DNA of 64,000 bases, from contig JAJPIA010000085.1 of the NCBI GenBank assembly GCA_021324975.1, positions 122,006 through 186,005 on the forward strand. Direction: 5' to 3'. Position numbers and translations under genes: made by a program. Shown here piece by piece: positions 1,534 to 9,652 of this stretch. Position 1 is the stretch's first letter, and every line of letters begins with the position of its first letter. Source of the stretch: Bacillota bacterium (GTDB lineage Bacteria > Sysuimicrobiota > Sysuimicrobiia > Sysuimicrobiales > Segetimicrobiaceae). Under the pieces are notes generated by a model. That model saw only the letters and a program-made list of their open reading frames with translations, made no database searches and was not told the origin of the DNA.

Positions 1534-1567
1534 AAAAAGGCTTCTACAGTCGCGTGCTGTAGAAGCC
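1534..1567 (-). terminator. Intrinsic terminator in moxR leader (riboswitch expression platform)
   Basis: On the minus strand a perfect 11-bp stem pairs GGCTTCTACAG (1567-1557) with CTGTAGAAGCC (1549-1539) around a 7-nt loop, followed by TTTTT (1538-1534). It lies between the promoter and the moxR start, so it works as an attenuator. The 5' arm contains GCTTC (1566-1562), which is also the pseudoknot strand of the overlapping aptamer. Aptamer and terminator are therefore mutually exclusive. Confidence 0.88.
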
Positions 1568-1620
1568 ATCGGCCCGCGAGGCATGCGCCTCGGAGGCAGT
1601 TGTGGCGGGCCTCATCGCCC
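1557..1620 (-). ncRNA. Fluoride riboswitch (crcB motif) controlling moxR-DUF58
   Basis: The minus strand starts with GGGCGATGAGGCCCGCC (1620-1604), which matches the 5' half of the Thermotoga-type fluoride aptamer as I remember it. P1 is GGCG/CGCC. The conserved AAC is followed by an extended P2 (GCC 1597-1595 with GGC 1574-1572) that encloses a 6-bp CGAGGC/GCCTCG hairpin with a GCAT loop. Next come CGATG (1571-1567) and GCTTC (1566-1562), which can pair with GAGGC (1613-1609) as the pseudoknot with one G.U pair. A1569 and T1561 match the linchpin A-U pair. The position usually U after P2 is C1571, a deviation. Overlap with the terminator arm predicts fluoride-dependent antitermination. Confidence 0.78.
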
Positions 1621-1649
1621 TCGAGCGCGTTCGACGTCCAGCGTCCCCC

Positions 1650-1679
1650 ATTATAGGAACGCTCGCGACGAAGCGTCAA
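1650..1679 (-). promoter_or_regulatory. Sigma-70-type promoter of the moxR leader
   Basis: TTGACG (1679-1674) and a perfect TATAAT (1655-1650) are separated by 18 bp on the minus strand. Transcription should begin near 1643, about 23 nt before the riboswitch aptamer and 130 nt before the moxR start codon. Confidence 0.82.
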
Positions 1680-1730: not shown

Positions 1731-1759
1731 TTGTCGCGGCGTCACTCCGCTGGTATTAT
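1731..1759 (+). promoter_or_regulatory. Sigma-70-type promoter of the Hyf/Ehr-like operon
   Basis: TTGTCG (1731-1736) and TATTAT (1754-1759) are separated by 17 bp. The predicted start is near 1766, about 35 nt upstream of the fluoride aptamer. The -35 box is 51 bp from the divergent moxR -35 box. Confidence 0.72.
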
Positions 1760-1799
1760 TGCCGCGGTAAGAAGCGCGCTCTCATACGGCGCCCGGCTC

Positions 1800-1854
1800 C
1801 TGGCGATGAGGCTCGCCATATAACCGCGTGTTTCGACGCTGATAGCCTCTGCAG
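1800..1854 (+). ncRNA. Fluoride riboswitch (crcB motif) controlling the Hyf/Ehr-like operon
   Basis: The aptamer is close to consensus. P1 is GGCGA (1802-1806) with TCGCC (1813-1817). The conserved AAC (1822-1824) precedes P2, GCGT (1826-1829) with ACGC (1836-1839). TGATA (1840-1844) follows. The pseudoknot pairs GAGGCT (1808-1813) with AGCCTC (1844-1849). The long-range pairs of fluoride aptamers are present: A1806 with T1840, and A1842 with T1850. The pseudoknot strand is also the start of the terminator's 5' arm, so fluoride binding should prevent termination and switch on the downstream genes. Formate-hydrogenlyase-type genes are among those I recall being associated with crcB motifs. Confidence 0.9.
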
Positions 1855-1880
1855 CCTGTTCGGCTCTGCAGAGGCTTTGT
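1844..1880 (+). terminator. Intrinsic terminator, expression platform of the plus-strand fluoride riboswitch
   Basis: AGCCTCTGCAG (1844-1854) pairs perfectly with CTGCAGAGGCT (1866-1876), followed by TTTGTTGCGTTT. The first six bases of the 5' arm are also the pseudoknot strand of the aptamer. From here to the first start codon (1881-2042) I see no ORF or further conserved structure, only the ribosome binding site GGGGAGGTGA just before 2043. Confidence 0.88.
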
Positions 1881-2042: not shown

Positions 2043-2987
2043 GTGGCCGCCCACATGCTCTTCAACGTGATCCAGGCGCTTACGGTCCTGCTCCTATCGC
2101 CGCTCGTCAAGGGAGTTTTGGATCGGTGGAAGGAACGCGTCCAATCGCGCCGCGGGCCGACCATCTGGCAACCGTATCGAGATCTTTGGAAACTTTTCCA
2201 GAAGGACGAGGTGGTTTCTGACCAGAGCTCGTGGATCTTTCGGGCGACGCCCTATGTTGTGTTCACGATGCCGCTCTTCGTGACCCTTCTGATCCCCGCG
2301 CTCACAACATACCCGCTGTTCTTCGCCTTTATGGGGGACATGCTGGGGGCCGGATTTTTGCTCGCGTTCGGCGGATTCTTCGCAGCGCTCGCGGCCGTCG
2401 ACACGACGAATCCCTACGGTGCCATGGGGGCGAGCCGGACCCGAATGGTTGGCTTCCTGGCCGAACCGGTGTTCATCATCGTTTTCTTCACCATCTCGTT
2501 CGTCGCCGGCTCGACGATTCCGTACATCGTCCAACAGCAATGGGTTTCGCCGCCGTCCAACTTCTTTGAGCCTTCGCACGTCCTGATTATGCTGGCCTTT
2601 CTCATGCTCTTACTGGCGGAGGCGGGTCGGATTCCGGTGGACAGCCCGTCCGGCCACTTCGAGCTCGCCATGATCGACGAGTCGAAGAACCTGGAGTACT
2701 CGGGGCGCGGCGCCGCGCTCATGAACTGGGGCGGCGCGATGAAGTTCATGGTACTCCAGCTGGTCTTCCTCAATGTCCTCGTCACGCCGTGGGGTCTGGC
2801 GCAGACTCCGTCACTCGCCGCGGTGATGCTGGCGATTCCGCTCGTATTTTCCAAGATCCTCGTGCTGCTCGCCGTGCTCACGGTCATCGAGTCGTCGCTG
2901 GCGAAGCTGAGGCTTTTCCGCATTACGGAGTTTCTGGGCGCGGCGTTCGTCATCGCGACCGTTGCGATGATCACGCGCATCTTCTAG
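2043..2987 (+). CDS. HyfC/HycD/NuoH-like membrane subunit
   Basis: This 314-residue, multi-helix protein is the NuoH/HycD-type subunit that anchors the peripheral arm to the membrane arm in hydrogenase-like complexes. The family loop is visible as AEAGRIPVDSPSGHFELAMIDE (about 192-213), with E193, D200, H205 and E207, and the N-terminal QSRRGPTIWQPYRDLWKLFQKD is also typical. GTG at 2043 follows GGGGAGGTGA by 4-5 nt. It is the first gene after the riboswitch terminator and heads a tight six-gene operon. It has no redox centre of its own; the family links Fe-S cluster reduction to ion movement. Confidence 0.92.
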   Translation: MAAHMLFNVIQALTVLLLSPLVKGVLDRWKERVQSRRGPTIWQPYRDLWKLFQKDEVVSDQSSWIFRATPYVVFTMPLFVTLLIPALTTYPLFFAFMGDMLGAGFLLAFGGFFAALAAVDTTNPYGAMGASRTRMVGFLAEPVFIIVFFTISFVAGSTIPYIVQQQWVSPPSNFFEPSHVLIMLAFLMLLLAEAGRIPVDSPSGHFELAMIDESKNLEYSGRGAALMNWGGAMKFMVLQLVFLNVLVTPWGLAQTPSLAAVMLAIPLVFSKILVLLAVLTVIESSLAKLRLFRITEFLGAAFVIATVAMITRIF

Positions 2988-3001
2988 TCAAGGAGCGTCG
3001 A

Positions 3002-3679
3002 GTGGTGCAATCAGCGTGGGCGGTGGCGCTCAACGATCTGGCCGGCGGGCTCTTTCTGTTGACAGCCGTCGCACTCGTTGTTGTCCGGCAGGTGCAAGCG
3101 TGCTTGGCGGCGTTCGTGTTGGAGTCCGTGCTGCTCGCCGCTTCGGCGTTCATTCTGGCGGCCGCGTCCGGCATCCCCGACCTCGTCGCCGTCGGCTTGA
3201 TCACGATCGCCGTCAAAGCCGTCCTCCTGCCCTGGCTGCTTCGCGGCACGGTCCCCGAAGAGATCTACACTCGTCGGGAACTGTCACAACTCGTCAATGT
3301 CCCTGCATCGCTCCTGATCGCCCTGGCGCTCACCCTGGCCGCGTATCTCATCGCCGTGCCCCTCGCGCCGGCGCAGGATGCCTTTATCAGGGTCAATCTT
3401 CCCATCGGTCTCGCCGGGCTCTTCATCAGCGCTTTGTCGCTGGTCACGCGTCGCGAGGCCGTCCCGCAGCTCGTCGGGTTGTTGGCCATGGAAAATGGCG
3501 CGTTCCTGGCCGGCGTCTCCATCGCGCCTGACCTCCCGTTGATCGCCGAGTTGGCCGCGTCCTTCGACGTGCTGGTGATCGTCCTCGTCATGGGCATCTT
3601 GACCCGTGCCATTCACGAGCATGTCGGCACGACCGACATCGTCGAGCTTGTGGAGCGAAGCGACGAGGAAGAGCTGTGA
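3002..3679 (+). CDS. HyfE-like (NuoK-type) membrane subunit
   Basis: The protein has about 225 residues, nearly all in hydrophobic helices, with a short acidic tail (ELVERSDEEEL). Length, the motif SGIPDLVAVGLITIAVKAVLLPW and the position between HyfC-like and HyfF-like genes fit HyfE, a fusion related to NuoK/MrpC. AAGGAG at 2990-2995 precedes two in-frame GTG codons at 3002 and 3005, and either could be the start. The next gene overlaps its stop by 4 bp. The role is structural and ion-conducting in the membrane arm. Confidence 0.86.
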   Translation: MVQSAWAVALNDLAGGLFLLTAVALVVVRQVQACLAAFVLESVLLAASAFILAAASGIPDLVAVGLITIAVKAVLLPWLLRGTVPEEIYTRRELSQLVNVPASLLIALALTLAAYLIAVPLAPAQDAFIRVNLPIGLAGLFISALSLVTRREAVPQLVGLLAMENGAFLAGVSIAPDLPLIAELAASFDVLVIVLVMGILTRAIHEHVGTTDIVELVERSDEEEL

Positions 3680-5109
3680 CGCTCATCGTGATCCCGCTCT
3701 TGCCCCTGGCGGCGGCGCTCTGGGCACTGTTCCCGCAGCGAGGGCGCGCTGCCGCCGGAGCGACGATGGCGGCGGCCGCCGCGGCCGCGGGGGCCGCATG
3801 GAGCGTAGCGCTACGGAGCGCCGCCGGCGCTCCCACGGTTGCGATATCTGGATGGATCGCCTGCGACGGTTTGGGCGCGCTCGCGCTCGTGCTCGTGGCC
3901 GGAGTGAACCTCAGCGCCGCGATCTTTTCCTACGGTTACGTGTCGGCCCGCCTTGCGCCCGCGGGATCCCGGGCGGAACGCCGATACTACGTCGACTACA
4001 ATCTCTTCGCCGGCTCACTCCTGCTCGTACCGCTGCTGTCGGAACCCGCGCTCGTCTGGATCGCGATCGAGCTGACGACGCTCCTGTCGGTGTTTCTGGT
4101 CGGGTTCACCCGAACGCGCGGCGCCCTCGAGGCGGCGTGGAAGTACGTCGTCCTTACGCTGATGGGCGCGGCGATCGCTCTCCTCGGGTTTCTCCTCCTC
4201 TATTGGGCGTTGCGGGGCGCGGGAGGCGCCGCGTTCACATGGGATGGGCTCACGGCGGCCGCCCCGCGCATGCCGGCGGGTCTGATGCAGGCGGCCTTCC
4301 TCCTCGTTCTCGTTGGCCTGGGCGCCAAGCTCGGACTCGTCCCGTTGCACACGTGGGTCCCGGATGCGTACCGCCATGCACCGGCTCCGGTCTGCGCGCT
4401 TCTGTCCGGGGCGGAAGCCACGGTCGTGCTCTATGCGATTCTGCGTCTCGTGCCGGTAGCGGCCGGGGTGCCCGGCGCGCACGCTGGGGGCTGGCTCATT
4501 GGCTTTGGACTGCTGTCCGTTGGCGTGGCGGTTTTTCTCATCCTCCAGGCGAGCGACTACAAGCACGTGTTTGCCTACTCGACGATCGAGCACATGGGCA
4601 TCATCCTGGTGGCTGCGGGTCTCGGGGGAGCGCTCGCCTCCTACGGCGCAGCCGCACAGGTGCTTGCGCATTCCGTCACCAAGACATTTTGTTTTCTTGC
4701 CGCGGGGGCGGCCGCGGTGGTGACGCCGCGGCGTGAGATCCAAGGGCTCCTGCGAATCTCGCCGGTTGCCGGCGCGGCGCTGCTGCTCGGAGGGCTCGCG
4801 ATTGCGGGGGCCCCTCCGCTCGCGGTCTTCCTCAGCGAGTTCACGATTTTCCGGGCGGGGTTCGCGGAGCGATACCCGATCGCCGCCGCGCTTCTGGCCG
4901 GGTTTGTCGCCGTTGGATTCTTCGCCGTGATGGCGCATGTGAACCGCGCGGTCTTTGGCCGCGCCGGCGTGCGTAAAGTCATCCCCTTGCCGGGGGCGTG
5001 TGTGTTCGCGCTGGCAGCCGCCTCCGTCCCCGTGTTGTGGCTCGGTGTGTACGTCCCCCGCCCTGTTCTCGGGCTTCTCCATCAGGCGGCGCTGTGGATT
5101 GGGAGGTGA
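3676..5109 (+). CDS. HyfF-like antiporter-type membrane subunit
   Basis: The protein has 477 residues and about 14 predicted helices of the proton_antipo_M family (NuoN/M/L, MrpD, HyfF). The charged residues of the ion path are kept: E132 in IAIELTTLLS, K218 in GLGAKLGLVPLHTWVPDAY, K296 in ASDYKHVFAYSTIEHMG and K336 in AHSVTKTF. The GTG start overlaps the previous stop (GTGA). Retention of these residues shows selection for ion translocation even though the redox subunits of this operon are degenerate. Confidence 0.9.
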   Translation: MTLIVIPLLPLAAALWALFPQRGRAAAGATMAAAAAAAGAAWSVALRSAAGAPTVAISGWIACDGLGALALVLVAGVNLSAAIFSYGYVSARLAPAGSRAERRYYVDYNLFAGSLLLVPLLSEPALVWIAIELTTLLSVFLVGFTRTRGALEAAWKYVVLTLMGAAIALLGFLLLYWALRGAGGAAFTWDGLTAAAPRMPAGLMQAAFLLVLVGLGAKLGLVPLHTWVPDAYRHAPAPVCALLSGAEATVVLYAILRLVPVAAGVPGAHAGGWLIGFGLLSVGVAVFLILQASDYKHVFAYSTIEHMGIILVAAGLGGALASYGAAAQVLAHSVTKTFCFLAAGAAAVVTPRREIQGLLRISPVAGAALLLGGLAIAGAPPLAVFLSEFTIFRAGFAERYPIAAALLAGFVAVGFFAVMAHVNRAVFGRAGVRKVIPLPGACVFALAAASVPVLWLGVYVPRPVLGLLHQAALWIGR

Positions 5110-5116
5110 GAAACGC

Positions 5117-6709
5117 GTGAGCCCTGTAGATCGCGCCGGCGCAAGCCGGACGGGTATCGACGCGCTGGTCAGGGCCGAGTGGCCGGACGTCGCTATTTCG
5201 AGCGACGGCCGCGCGGCGACGATCGCCTGCCCGCCGGAAGCGCTGCGCGGGGTCTGCCGTCGCCTCTTTAGCGACCTCGGATATGCCTTTGGAGGGCTTG
5301 TAGTCGAGGATGCCCAGGCGGTCTGGAGCCTGCGCTACTTGTTCTACAGCCCTCTGGCGGAGCTGGCGCACGTGGTGACCGAGTGCGTCAAGCCCTCCGA
5401 AACGGTGCCGAGCATCAGCGTCGAGGTCCACGCAGCGGACTGGCATGAGCGGGAGGCGGAAGACCTCTTCGGGTTGGGTTTTGAGGGGCATCCACGCCTT
5501 GGGGACTTCGTCCTGCACAACGACGTCTGGCCGGAGAGCGTCGCGCCGATGCGCCGGTCCTTCGACCCCGCGGTGCGTGCGCCGTTGCACCGGCCCGATC
5601 CGAATTGGGCGCCCCTCCGCCTCGTGGATGAACCGGGCGCGTTCCTGATGCCCGTCGGACCCATTTACTCCGATATCACCGAGAGCGCGCTCTTCCTCCT
5701 CGAAACGGTCGGCGAAGACGTCATCCGCGTCTTCCCTCGTCTATTTTACAAATACCGCGCCGTGGAGAAGAACGCCGAAGGACGCAGCGTCGACGACGGG
5801 CTGTTGGTGGCGGAACGATTCGCCGCCACGTCGGCGTTCGCGCACTCGCTCGCCTTCTGCCACGCGGTGGAACAGATCGGCGGGATCGCCGTGCCGCCTC
5901 GCGGGCGCACGCTCCGCATCTTCCTCGCCGAACTCGAGCGGCTGCGGCACCACGTCGCGGCCATCGAAGGGATCTGCGCGTCGACCGCCCTCGCGGTGGC
6001 CGCAAGTCAGGCGGCGATCCTCGAGGAACAACTCTTGCGGCTATCGGGCGCGCTGACGGGCCACCGGTACCTGTTCGGGCTCAACGTGCCTGGGGGACTC
6101 GCACGGGACCTCGAGACGGCGGCGTGCCGGGAAACGGCGGCGTCGGTCGGAACCGTGCTCCACGGATTGTCGCGGCTGCGCGAGATGCTCCGGTTTTCAT
6201 CGAGCTTTCTCGACCGTATCGAAGGCGTCGGCGCGATCGCTGAGCAGGCGGCATTGACGCACGGACTGGTGGGCCCGATTGCCCGCGCGTCGAACGTGGC
6301 GCGCGACCTCCGCCGCGCACAGCCCTACGGAGGCTACGAACAATTCGAGTTTCAGGTGCCGCGGGAGACGACCGGAGACGGCTATGCGCGCCTGCTGGTC
6401 CTCTTCGCGGAGGCGGAGCAATCGACCGGTTTGCTGCGACAGTCGGCGGACCGGTTGTCCGAAGGCCCGGTTCACGTACCGGCGCCGATTCGCGCGGGCG
6501 CCGCCTTCGGATGGTGCGAGGCTCCACTCGGCGCCGCCTTTCACTGGGTGCGGATCGGCGCGGACGGTCGGATCGAGCGATTTCGACCGATCACACCGTC
6601 GTTTGTGAACTGGCACGGCTTTCATCTTGCCGCCGAGAACTTCGCCTTCCAGGATTTCCCGATCATCCTGGCCACCTTCGGCCTCTCGGTCGCGGAGTGC
6701 GATCGCTGA
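5117..6709 (+). CDS. HyfG/HycE-like large subunit lacking NiFe ligands (Ehr-type)
   Basis: The protein has 530 residues. Residues 1-165 form a NuoC-like domain (VHAADWHEREAEDLFGLGFEGHPRL) and 175-530 the hydrogenase large-subunit/NuoD-like domain. The N-terminal motif usually RxCGxCxFAHS reads RFAATSAFAHS, so the two cysteines are A236 and S239. The C-terminal CxxC reads S524-V-A-E527 before CDR. A NiFe site therefore cannot form, as known for Ehr (energy-converting-hydrogenase-related) complexes and NuoD. GTG at 5117 follows GGGAGGTGAG, and longer in-frame starts would lie inside the previous gene. It should pair with the small subunit encoded next. Confidence 0.88.
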   Translation: MSPVDRAGASRTGIDALVRAEWPDVAISSDGRAATIACPPEALRGVCRRLFSDLGYAFGGLVVEDAQAVWSLRYLFYSPLAELAHVVTECVKPSETVPSISVEVHAADWHEREAEDLFGLGFEGHPRLGDFVLHNDVWPESVAPMRRSFDPAVRAPLHRPDPNWAPLRLVDEPGAFLMPVGPIYSDITESALFLLETVGEDVIRVFPRLFYKYRAVEKNAEGRSVDDGLLVAERFAATSAFAHSLAFCHAVEQIGGIAVPPRGRTLRIFLAELERLRHHVAAIEGICASTALAVAASQAAILEEQLLRLSGALTGHRYLFGLNVPGGLARDLETAACRETAASVGTVLHGLSRLREMLRFSSSFLDRIEGVGAIAEQAALTHGLVGPIARASNVARDLRRAQPYGGYEQFEFQVPRETTGDGYARLLVLFAEAEQSTGLLRQSADRLSEGPVHVPAPIRAGAAFGWCEAPLGAAFHWVRIGADGRIERFRPITPSFVNWHGFHLAAENFAFQDFPIILATFGLSVAECDR

Positions 6710-6746
6710 TGCGGCGGCGGCGGCGGTCCCCAAGGAGATATGCGCC

Positions 6747-7508
6747 ATGAGCAACTGGGTGATACGCGGTCTCAGGACGCCGGTTCCCACGACGCGCTTT
6801 CCGGCCGCGCCGGAACGGGCACGGGGGGCGTCTCCAGGTATGCCCCGCGCCACCGTGCTTCCCGAGGAGGTCGCGGCCGATCTCGCGCGCCGCTGCCCCA
6901 CGGGGGCACTCGCGGCGCACGGCGAACGCGTTGTGGTCGATCCGGCACGCTGTGTGCATTCGTTTCGGTGCGTCCGCGGCGTCGCGTCGCCGATGGATTG
7001 GAACCATGGCAACGAATGGGCCGCGCCGCGCGGCACGGACGCACGACCATTCGGCCCGCTCGGGGCGGCCTTCCGTGGGTCGGCGCATATCCTCGTCGTC
7101 GACGCGGGCGACTGCGGCGCGTGCCTCGCCGAGGTGAAGCACCTCAACAACCCCTACTACAACATGCACCGCCTGGGGTTCTTCGTCACACCGACCCCGC
7201 GCAACGCGGATATCCTGCTGGTCGTTGGATCAGGCACCGTGAACATGCGGTGGGCGCTCCGCAAGGCCTACGAGGCGATGCCCGCACCGAAGCGGGTGGT
7301 GGCCGTGGGCACCTGTGCCCTGACCGGGAGCGTGTTTGCGCCGAGCTTCGCGTCGGATGCCGGGATCCACGACCTTCCTGTCGATGTGGCGGTACCGGGA
7401 TCGCCACCGCCCCCCCTCGCGATCCTCCACGGCCTGCTCCTCGTCACCGGACGCGCCCCGGCGGCCCGAAGCGGGTCGGGCCTCGTGGATACAGCTAAGG
7501 CAGACTGA
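6747..7508 (+). CDS. HyfI/HycG/NuoB-like small subunit with degenerate ferredoxin domain
   Basis: The protein has 253 residues. An N-terminal ferredoxin-like part keeps C50 (RCPTGAL), C69 and C75, but the middle cysteine of CxxCxxC is S72 (CVHSFRC). The NuoB-like part has the first two ligands in DCGACLAEV (C123, C126) and the third in VGTCALTG (C190). The fourth, normally VPGCPP, is S219 in VPGSPPPP; the codon is TCG at 7399-7401. The proximal 4Fe-4S cluster is thus short of one cysteine, as is the ferredoxin site. ATG 6747 has AAGGAGAT 7 nt upstream. Serine ligation or altered clusters remain possible. Confidence 0.88.
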   Translation: MSNWVIRGLRTPVPTTRFPAAPERARGASPGMPRATVLPEEVAADLARRCPTGALAAHGERVVVDPARCVHSFRCVRGVASPMDWNHGNEWAAPRGTDARPFGPLGAAFRGSAHILVVDAGDCGACLAEVKHLNNPYYNMHRLGFFVTPTPRNADILLVVGSGTVNMRWALRKAYEAMPAPKRVVAVGTCALTGSVFAPSFASDAGIHDLPVDVAVPGSPPPPLAILHGLLLVTGRAPAARSGSGLVDTAKAD

Positions 7509-9652
7509 TGATGGCGCTCAATGTGCTGGCCGCATCGTTCCTGACCGCGTGCGCAGCCGGGGTGATTGCCAGCGCCACCCTCCCCGATCGGCGTGTTCCG
7601 GCGGTCCTGGCCTGCACCGGGTCCGCGATGGCAATGATGCTCATGGCGATCGGGCTCACGGTGCTCGCGACCGGCCATCTCTGGTCCGCCACGCTGTGGA
7701 CCGTAGCCCCGTTTGGCGCACTGACGCTGGAAGTGGACCGGCTGGCGGCCGTGTTTATCACGGCTATGGGACTGGTATGCCTGCCCGTGTCGCTTTTCTC
7801 CGCCGGTTATTTGCTCCGCTATCTCGGCCGGTACAGCCTCCGATCGTTCGGCATCCTCTACCACGGCCTGCTCGCGGCGATCGCGCTCACGCTCGCCACC
7901 TCCGACGTCCTTGCGTTCCTGCTCGCCTGGGAGGCGATGGCGATCCTGAGCTACTTCCTCGTGAACTATGAACACGAGCAACGCGAGCACACGCACGCAG
8001 GGTACTTAATGCTCGTGATGGGCGAGGCCGGAACGGTCGCAGTGATGGTCGCATTCCTCCTGCTCATCAATGCGGCCGGCGGCCTCCCGTTCGCTGCGCT
8101 GCGACACGCGGCCGCCACAGCGGGCGTTCAGACGCGCTGGGCCGTCTTTCTGTTGTCGTTCTTCGGGTTCGGCGTGAAGGCCGGGCTGTTACCGGGCAGT
8201 TCCTGGCTTCCGCGCGCCCATCCGGCGGCGCCGGCCAACGTGTCGGCCGTGCTGTCCGGCGTGATTCTGAACCTCGGGCTCTACGGCATCATCCGCGTGA
8301 ACCTGGATCTCCTGCCGGCGCACTTGGTCGGCCCCGGCATAGTGGTGTTGGTCGTCGGCAGCCTGTCGGCCCTCGTCGGCATCCTCTACGCAACGACCCA
8401 GAACGACCTCAAGGCGATGCTGGCGCACAGCTCCATCGAAAATATCGGGATTGTGACCGCGGCGTTGGGCGCCGGGCTGGTCTTCGGGGCTTCCGGGGAA
8501 GCGACCCTCGCGAGCATGGCCTACGTCGCCGCGCTGTATCACATGGTGAATCACTCGGCCTATAAAGGACTCTTGTTTCTCGGTGCAGGCGCGGTCGACG
8601 GGGGCGCGGGGGAGCGTCACATGGATCGACTCGGCGGTCTCATCCGACGCATGCCTTGGACAGCCATGTTCTTCCTGGTCGGCGCGCTCGCCATCGCCGC
8701 GATGCCGCCGTTCAACGGGTTTGCCAGCGAATGGCTCACGCTGCAGACCCTGCTGCGCAGCGTCGAGCTCCACGCGACGGCGGTCAAGATCGTCTTCGCA
8801 CTGTGCGGCGCGGCCCTCGCCTTGACGGCGTCGCTCGCGGCGACCTGCTTTGTGAAGACCTTTGCGATGAGCTTCCTGGGGTTGCCCCGTTCAGGCGCCG
8901 CCGGGTCCGCGCACGAAGCGGCCCCTACCGCGCTGGCGGCCATGGGGATCCTGGCGGCGGTGTGCCTCGCGCTCGGCATCCTGCCGACTTACACGATCCC
9001 CGCGCTGAGCGGCGCCGTGGCGCCGCTGACCCACGCGAGCGCCGCGGACGCCCTCGTTCCGTCGTTCTTCGCGCCCGCAACGCCGGGGCACGCCCTGCCC
9101 GCGTCATTCGTAGCCGACTTTCGCACGCTTGGAGCGCAGGTCGGCCGGCACCTGCTGCCGGGCCGCGGGCTCATCGTATTGCTTCGCGGCGGGACCGATA
9201 ACCCGGTCGTCTTCGCGATGTCGACCAGCTACGCGTTCCCAGTGCTTCTGGGGCTGATCGGACTTGTCTACCTGGCCGTCCACGTTGGGACCCGAGCCCG
9301 CACGCTCGCGCGCCGACCGCGATGGGACGGCGGCGTGCCGCGGCTCGACCCGGAAATGACGTATACGGCCACCGGATTCTCCAACCCCGTCCGGGTCGTG
9401 TTCAATGCCGTCTTCCATCCATCCATGGCGGATGACACTACGGAGGTGGTGGCGGAGCACTTTCGGACGGCCGTTCGACGCGCGCGCGTCGAGACATACG
9501 TGGCCGACCGGTTTGTCGCTGATCCCCTCGCCGGTTGGTCACACGGCCTCGCCCGCGCGCTCGCGGCGATGCACCGCGGCGGCCTGAACACGTACGCGGC
9601 GTACGTGCTCCTCACGCTGCTGTTGGTCCTGGTGGCCGCGCGGTTGCTGTAG
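7508..9652 (+). CDS. HyfB-like antiporter-type membrane subunit
   Basis: The protein has 714 residues, about 14 antiporter helices plus a long C-terminal part with a last helix, as in HyfB/HycC/NuoL. Ion-path residues are present: E142 in AWEAMAILSYF, K224 in FGVKAGLLPGSSWLP, K302 in TQNDLKAMLAHSS and K353 in HSAYKGLLF. ATG at 7508 overlaps the previous stop by 1 bp (TGATG), and it is the last gene of the operon. Together with the HyfF-like subunit the complex has two antiporter-type subunits. The following 166 bp (9653-9818) lie between convergent genes and show no clear terminator. Confidence 0.9.
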   Translation: MMALNVLAASFLTACAAGVIASATLPDRRVPAVLACTGSAMAMMLMAIGLTVLATGHLWSATLWTVAPFGALTLEVDRLAAVFITAMGLVCLPVSLFSAGYLLRYLGRYSLRSFGILYHGLLAAIALTLATSDVLAFLLAWEAMAILSYFLVNYEHEQREHTHAGYLMLVMGEAGTVAVMVAFLLLINAAGGLPFAALRHAAATAGVQTRWAVFLLSFFGFGVKAGLLPGSSWLPRAHPAAPANVSAVLSGVILNLGLYGIIRVNLDLLPAHLVGPGIVVLVVGSLSALVGILYATTQNDLKAMLAHSSIENIGIVTAALGAGLVFGASGEATLASMAYVAALYHMVNHSAYKGLLFLGAGAVDGGAGERHMDRLGGLIRRMPWTAMFFLVGALAIAAMPPFNGFASEWLTLQTLLRSVELHATAVKIVFALCGAALALTASLAATCFVKTFAMSFLGLPRSGAAGSAHEAAPTALAAMGILAAVCLALGILPTYTIPALSGAVAPLTHASAADALVPSFFAPATPGHALPASFVADFRTLGAQVGRHLLPGRGLIVLLRGGTDNPVVFAMSTSYAFPVLLGLIGLVYLAVHVGTRARTLARRPRWDGGVPRLDPEMTYTATGFSNPVRVVFNAVFHPSMADDTTEVVAEHFRTAVRRARVETYVADRFVADPLAGWSHGLARALAAMHRGGLNTYAAYVLLTLLLVLVAARLL

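Follow-up and report, generated by a model that had tools for sequence, protein, structure and literature searches.

Ehr complexes combine membrane and peripheral subunits of the group 4 hydrogenase/complex I type with a large subunit that lacks the nickel-iron (NiFe) Cys pairs. Their function is described as unknown in a passage of PMC10284858, and a passage of PMC6349859 suspects them to be redox-coupled charge movers. The crcB RNAs (fluoride riboswitches) were reported in front of formate hydrogen lyase genes as early as 2010 (PMC2864571), which was repeated in 2024 (PMC11139923); the relevant passages of PMC2864571 state neither loss of the hydrogenase site nor a separate clade for these genes. 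Here, we analyzed a 64,000-nucleotide stretch of contig JAJPIA010000085.1 (assembly GCA_021324975.1, Bacillota bacterium), hereafter the window, which carries a six-gene operon, H-E-F-CD-I-B, behind a fluoride riboswitch. The encoded complex resembles the Ehr complexes in the respects named above. Almost all relatives found, from many phyla, lie behind the same switch, and for this reason the complex appears to serve bacterial fluoride defence as a dedicated component. Given the regulation, the conservation and the neighbour genes, a fluoride role for this clade is close to certain. On the strength of the sequences, we see about an even chance that this nickel-free relative of the group 4 hydrogenases is induced by fluoride and uses electron flow to pump ions, most likely protons. 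The brief remark of 2010 thus gains a defined object: the complex is widespread, cannot act as a hydrogenase, and is under a fluoride riboswitch in essentially the whole clade. No description of a fluoride-dedicated NiFe-less complex was found in the open-licence literature searched, and the label formate hydrogen lyase would misfit the complexes of this clade, if it was meant for them. The regulation provides a first physiological cue for one branch of Ehr complexes and suggests that bacteria may defend themselves against fluoride not by export alone but also by energising the membrane.

The six genes lie on the + strand at 2043-9652, are Hyf/complex I-like, and are separated by gaps of 7-37 bases or overlap by a few bases (Table 1). 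Family profile searches resolved the operon into NuoH (NADHdh), a hydrogenase-4 membrane subunit, two Proton_antipo_M proteins, a Complex1_30kDa+49kDa protein (NuoC-NuoD fusion), and a NuoB-type small subunit (Oxidored_q6). Among solved structures, chains of Escherichia coli formate hydrogenlyase (FHL) come closest to CD, H, and B; subunit I is closest to MbhJ of the archaeal membrane-bound hydrogenase, with an FHL chain ranking second. The AlphaFold2 models of CD and I were confident (predicted local distance difference test scores of 88.6 and 83.9), and the CD model matched HycE (7z0s_E) over its whole length with a template modelling score of 0.92, the best match in Foldseek.

Table 1. Positions of the operon, its leader, two replaced codons, and the divergent leader in the window
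Feature	Position	Strand	Evidence
Promoter-like site of the operon, TTGTCG-17-TATTAT, TG ahead of -10 (extended -10)	1731..1759	+	consensus match only
Fluoride riboswitch aptamer before gene H	1793..1858	+	RF01734 35.4 bits, gathering cut-off 34; same site in whole-genome search
Terminator hairpin followed by TTTGTT; 5' arm overlaps aptamer pseudoknot arm	1845..1875	+	-21.2 kcal/mol, z -3.43
Gene H, NuoH/HyfC-like membrane subunit, 314 aa	2043..2987	+	PF00146 7.3e-32; E. coli FHL subunit 4 chain 7z0s_D 1.8e-42
Gene E, HyfE-like membrane subunit, 225 aa	3002..3679	+	NF008556 7.3e-18, under that model's cut-off
Gene F, HyfF/NuoN-type antiporter-like subunit, 477 aa	3676..5109	+	PF00361 4.4e-43; NF005045 2.9e-84; channel residues
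Gene CD, fused NuoC+NuoD/HyfG-like large subunit without NiFe ligands, 530 aa	5117..6709	+	PF00346, PF00329; ligand positions
Gene I, one-cluster ferredoxin domain fused to NuoB/HyfI-like small subunit, 253 aa	6747..7508	+	PF01058 2e-21; Cys columns
Ser72 (TCG) of gene I; Cys in 76 of 78 relatives	6960..6962	+	
Ser219 (TCG) of gene I, variable fourth N2-type ligand position	7401..7403	+	
Gene B, HyfB/NuoL-type antiporter-like subunit, 714 aa	7508..9652	+	NF005086 2.8e-173; 7z0s_C 3.8e-56; channel residues
Second, divergent fluoride aptamer, before MoxR	1553..1628	-	RF01734 32.7 bits, just under cut-off 34; R1 model 37.9 bits
Divergent promoter-like site, TTGACG-18-TATAAT	1679..1650	-	consensus match
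Divergent terminator	1567..1539	-	hairpin

In contrast to E. coli formate hydrogenlyase 1 and hydrogenase 4 (Hyc/Hyf), the fluoride operon has no NiFe site, no formate dehydrogenase gene, and no HycB-like gene. Both CxxC nickel motifs of group 4 hydrogenases are not kept in the family: the four nickel-ligand positions of CD are free of Cys in 78 of the 82 aligned sequences, and none has more than two. A hydrogenase or formate hydrogenlyase identity is ruled out by these missing ligands. Position 527 of CD is Glu in 82/82 sequences, and position 524 is Ser in 80/82. The complex shares with complex I the NuoH-, NuoN-, and NuoL-type subunits and the E..DR end of CD, as at the end of NuoD, but has neither the NADH module (NuoE, F, G) nor a two-cluster NuoI, its ferredoxin domain having four Cys only. 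It also differs from the Mrp antiporter, because the CD and I arm is present in the window operon and in its relatives, so that the membrane part does not stand alone.

A search of 386 genomes with CD grouped four of them, including that of the window, at identities of at least 57%, with the next match at 36%. When one genome per species was scanned across 84,980 species, 139 relatives were obtained. The best 80 of these 139, which supplied the loci, are 52-67% identical and come nearly all from metagenome-assembled genomes (MAGs) with labels of 13-14 phyla, although MAG binning can mislabel phyla. The gene order H-E-F-CD-I-B is nearly constant across the family loci, whereas Ehr operons mostly have the order B-H-E-F-CD-I. 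In the midpoint-rooted tree, 82 family sequences were split from 16 outgroup sequences, a mix of Ehr and NiFe types, by a single branch of 2.14 changes/site with a Shimodaira-Hasegawa-like approximate likelihood ratio support of 100; on this rooting, the fluoride complex appears as a deep clade of its own, apart from the Ehr and group 4 hydrogenase sequences of the outgroup. Further differences from the Ehr complexes are the fluoride riboswitch, the fusion of a one-cluster ferredoxin domain to the small subunit, and the variable fourth ligand of the proximal cluster. The seventeenth outgroup sequence (L068) was too short for the tree. Short sequences were also dropped from the alignments, which retained 66/69 for H, 72/73 for E, 74/82 for F, 82/82 for CD, 79/82 for I, and 65/81 for B. 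L055, another reading of the contig of L098, took the place of L098, and the CD sequences of L080 and L082 are identical. Plasmid carriage was seen just for two Caballeronia matches (34%) of the outgroup type. Ranked by divergence within the family, the window operon is first of 66 for H and above most for E, F, and I; it is 16th of 82 for CD, and its B is not deviant. General decay of the operon was rejected, since this uneven deviation across the subunits is the pattern of a divergent lineage.

The riboswitch control proposed in the earlier note is strongly supported by the aptamer, promoter-like site, and terminator of the leader, and it extends far more widely through the family than the window shows. 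The 3' arm of the aptamer is shared with the 5' arm of the terminator, which, as read from the folded sequence, is the architecture of a predicted fluoride ON-switch and is the aptamer-terminator arrangement of the fluoride riboswitch regulon (crcB motif). Terminators after the aptamer were found in the members folded, namely the window (both strands) and L054. An aptamer directly precedes gene H in 60 of the 64 testable family loci, when matches to a covariance model (R1) up to ~1.65 kb before the start of H were counted at a best E-value limit of 0.05; some of the 60 matches are weak (14.5-29 bits). The four loci missing this position (L081, L097, L115, and L117) carry aptamers roughly 2 to 3.4 kb upstream. 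The other 16 of the 80 loci were not testable, because of contig ends or because gene H was not found. Model R1 was trained on 25 aptamers, 19 of them from tested loci, and the tested loci L082, L098, and L074 repeat sequences of the training set, so that the 60/64 count is partly circular. Independently of R1, the curated model RF01734 matched in 43/43 family genomes searched, 41 of them over the cut-off, although this search was genome-wide and not by position. None of the 17 outgroup loci had an aptamer in the R1 search, and RF01734 was found somewhere in the genome for 9 of the 17 outgroup genomes.

The pseudoknot was paired in 96.7% of cells among the 25 training aptamers, and five of its six pairs showed changes on both sides. 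Beyond the training set, 35 of 39 matches formed five or six of the six pairs; this is weak evidence, because over all 129 matches the observed pairing was 92% versus 76% with shuffled partners. A chance match to the riboswitch was rejected on account of the score over the curated cut-off, the family-wide recurrence, and the pseudoknot covariation. The window genome has four fluoride aptamers inside 6 kb, and their clustering before several gene sets indicates that the window operon belongs to a fluoride island.

The earlier note had described the redox arm as degenerate and the complex as redox-uncoupled. Degeneracy is real in that the nickel ligands are absent and the window copy has lost one Cys from each Fe-S motif, but when 79 small subunits were aligned, this reading, made from the window alone, had to be rejected for the family, where the Fe-S Cys are almost invariant. 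In the ferredoxin domain of subunit I, Cys50, Cys69, and Cys75 are present in 78/78 sequences and Cys72 in 76/78 (Ser in the window, Ala in L106). From ferredoxin chemistry, we take these four to be the ligands of one [4Fe-4S] cluster, a remnant of a two-cluster domain. The N2-like Cys123, Cys126, and Cys190 are found in 79/79 sequences. In contrast to these fixed Cys, position 219, that of the fourth N2-type ligand, is variable in 78 sequences (Asn 29, Cys 27, Asp 8, His 4, Ser 3, Gln 3, Ala 2, Thr 1, Phe 1), and it has changed at least five times between Cys and another residue along the tree. The Fe-S wiring has thus been kept and reshaped in the family, not abandoned. For the window lineage alone, with Cys72 and the Cys of position 219 lost, redox uncoupling is possible; a single sequencing error is an unlikely cause, as both TCG Ser codons are two changes away from a Cys codon. 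Of note, the small subunits of three outgroup loci (L070, L071, and L072) have lost the N2-type Cys and kept the Cys motifs of the N-terminal ferredoxin domain, which makes these complexes candidates for a partly redox-free complex.

The charged channel residues that had been pointed out in both antiporter-type subunits of the window exist and are conserved in the family. In subunit F, Glu132 is present in 70/74 sequences and Lys218, Lys296, and Lys336 in 74/74; in subunit B, Glu142, Lys224, and Lys353 are present in 65/65 and Lys302 in 63/65. The acidic residues of the NuoH-like subunit H, likewise noted before, are kept in 64-66 of 66 sequences, so that the key channel residues as a whole are kept in 94-100%. 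Their conservation in close homologues had been named beforehand as a point on which the proposal could be refuted; the comparison found them near-invariant and so did not refute it. In pairwise alignments, Leu and Gln of E. coli HycC stand opposite Lys224 and Lys302 of subunit B, whereas MbhH retains both Lys. The fluoride complex therefore holds a fuller channel set than HycC.

An antiporter whose membrane part exchanges ions as Mrp does, with the CD/I arm purely structural, would agree with the conserved antiporter-type subunits, the absent nickel ligands, a fourth N2-type ligand that is non-Cys in 51 of 78 sequences, and the Cys lost from both clusters in the window copy; moreover, a passage of PMC11139923 counts Na+/H+ antiporters among the common partners of fluoride riboswitches. 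However, seven Cys in two clusters, almost invariant over many phyla, would hardly be needed by a structural arm, and CD has 149 columns conserved at at least 93%. We regard such an antiporter as decidedly unlikely. Because the Fe-S Cys and the channels are both intact, the complex is most simply interpreted as a proton pump driven by redox chemistry. Fluoride binding to the aptamer would lift termination of the operon. The single ferredoxin-type cluster of subunit I would be the entry point for electrons, which would move on to the N2-like cluster held by three fixed Cys and a variable ligand and then reduce an acceptor in the CD cavity, where relatives hold NiFe or quinone. This electron flow would drive H+ outward via H, E, F, and B. 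In the window lineage, with its two lost Cys, electron transfer may be weaker or changed. Hydrogen fluoride (HF) lowers cytoplasmic pH, and fluoride export depends on proton-motive force, as stated in a passage of PMC11139923. Under fluoride, the pump would uphold the membrane potential, on which F- efflux depends and which HF entry lowers, without recourse to any Mg-nucleotide enzyme.

Several points weigh against an electron-driven pump. By the weak-acid principle, any rise of cytoplasmic pH through exported H+ would trap more F-, so that upholding the membrane potential appears a more plausible benefit than restoring pH. The window copy of subunit I is short of one Cys in each cluster (Cys72 and position 219). 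The position in CD that we take to be that of the quinone-site His of complex I, placed via the alignment with structural relatives, is mostly Tyr or Phe, and His in 3/82 sequences. No electron donor or acceptor gene recurs in the island neighbourhoods. Formate dehydrogenase was found neither in the window operon nor in any named cluster of recurrent neighbours, and none of 56 long neighbour open reading frames fits a simple Fe-S motif, a heuristic criterion.

The neighbours also bear on a metabolic bypass, in which the complex would serve as an electron sink for cells whose enolase and other Mg enzymes are blocked by fluoride; its main effect would be to restore redox balance, and ion pumping would be secondary. 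Enolase is present in nine islands, and a passage of PMC11139923 links fluoride with metabolic shifts and lists formate hydrogen lyase among the common riboswitch-associated enzymes. Nevertheless, neither formate dehydrogenase nor another catalytic partner recurs nearby, the H2-forming site is absent, and the channel residues are all kept, which leaves this bypass unlikely in our estimate.

Known fluoride exporters are unevenly distributed. CrcB is present in 21 of 44 family genomes and absent from 23, and the window genome (96% complete) has no CrcB match. Its one CLC carries the motif GREGP, not GREGT/V, the fluoride signature of CLC according to a passage of PMC11139923. None of the 30 CLC loci examined (one per genome, from 40 genomes with a match) has GREGT/V, and 4/44 genomes, MAGs being incomplete, match neither CrcB nor CLC. 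These gaps would suit a primary fluoride pump, with F- (or HF) leaving the cell through the complex itself. On the other hand, some of the CrcB genes that are present lie within the same island, incomplete MAGs may lack genes, MFS or other proteins could export fluoride, and the channel residues resemble proton channels; direct fluoride pumping is highly improbable. Very doubtful, too, is a new class of respiratory-type complex dedicated to fluoride: an electron-driven pump with a site-differentiated Fe-S cluster (three Cys and a variable ligand), which in some lineages would itself expel fluoride or take over from Fluc/CLC-F exporters. In the window genome, two further aptamers lie 5.6-5.9 kb upstream of the operon. 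One, at L005:12215-12278, precedes a major facilitator superfamily (MFS) transporter (L005:12298-13746, +), which is a candidate fluoride exporter, since it stands behind an aptamer and the genome has neither a CrcB match nor a CLC of the fluoride type.

The other of these two upstream aptamers, L005:11907-11977 (-), precedes two tandem MutS-domain-V proteins, in which no further Pfam domain was found, and a NUDIX protein (L005:8234-11886, -). Within the window, a MoxR-type AAA ATPase (536-1513, -) and a DUF58 protein (1-539, -) form an operon behind the divergent aptamer; this pair is not among the recurrent neighbour clusters of other islands. Recurrent island neighbours, counted in loci, are dynamin-like GTPases (25), DUF190 (16), MFS (12), MutS-like proteins (11), enolase (9), metallophosphoesterase (9), CrcB (7), and S-adenosylmethionine synthetase (4). 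The CrcB, enolase, DUF190, MutS-like, dynamin-like, and MFS genes stand in islands beside further fluoride aptamers. Of the 31 dynamin-like GTPases at the 25 loci, to which L095:907-2676 (-) belongs, seven lie directly behind an aptamer, and of the 19 DUF190 members at the 16 loci, to which L138:1085-1693 (+) belongs, 11 are the first gene after a fluoride aptamer.

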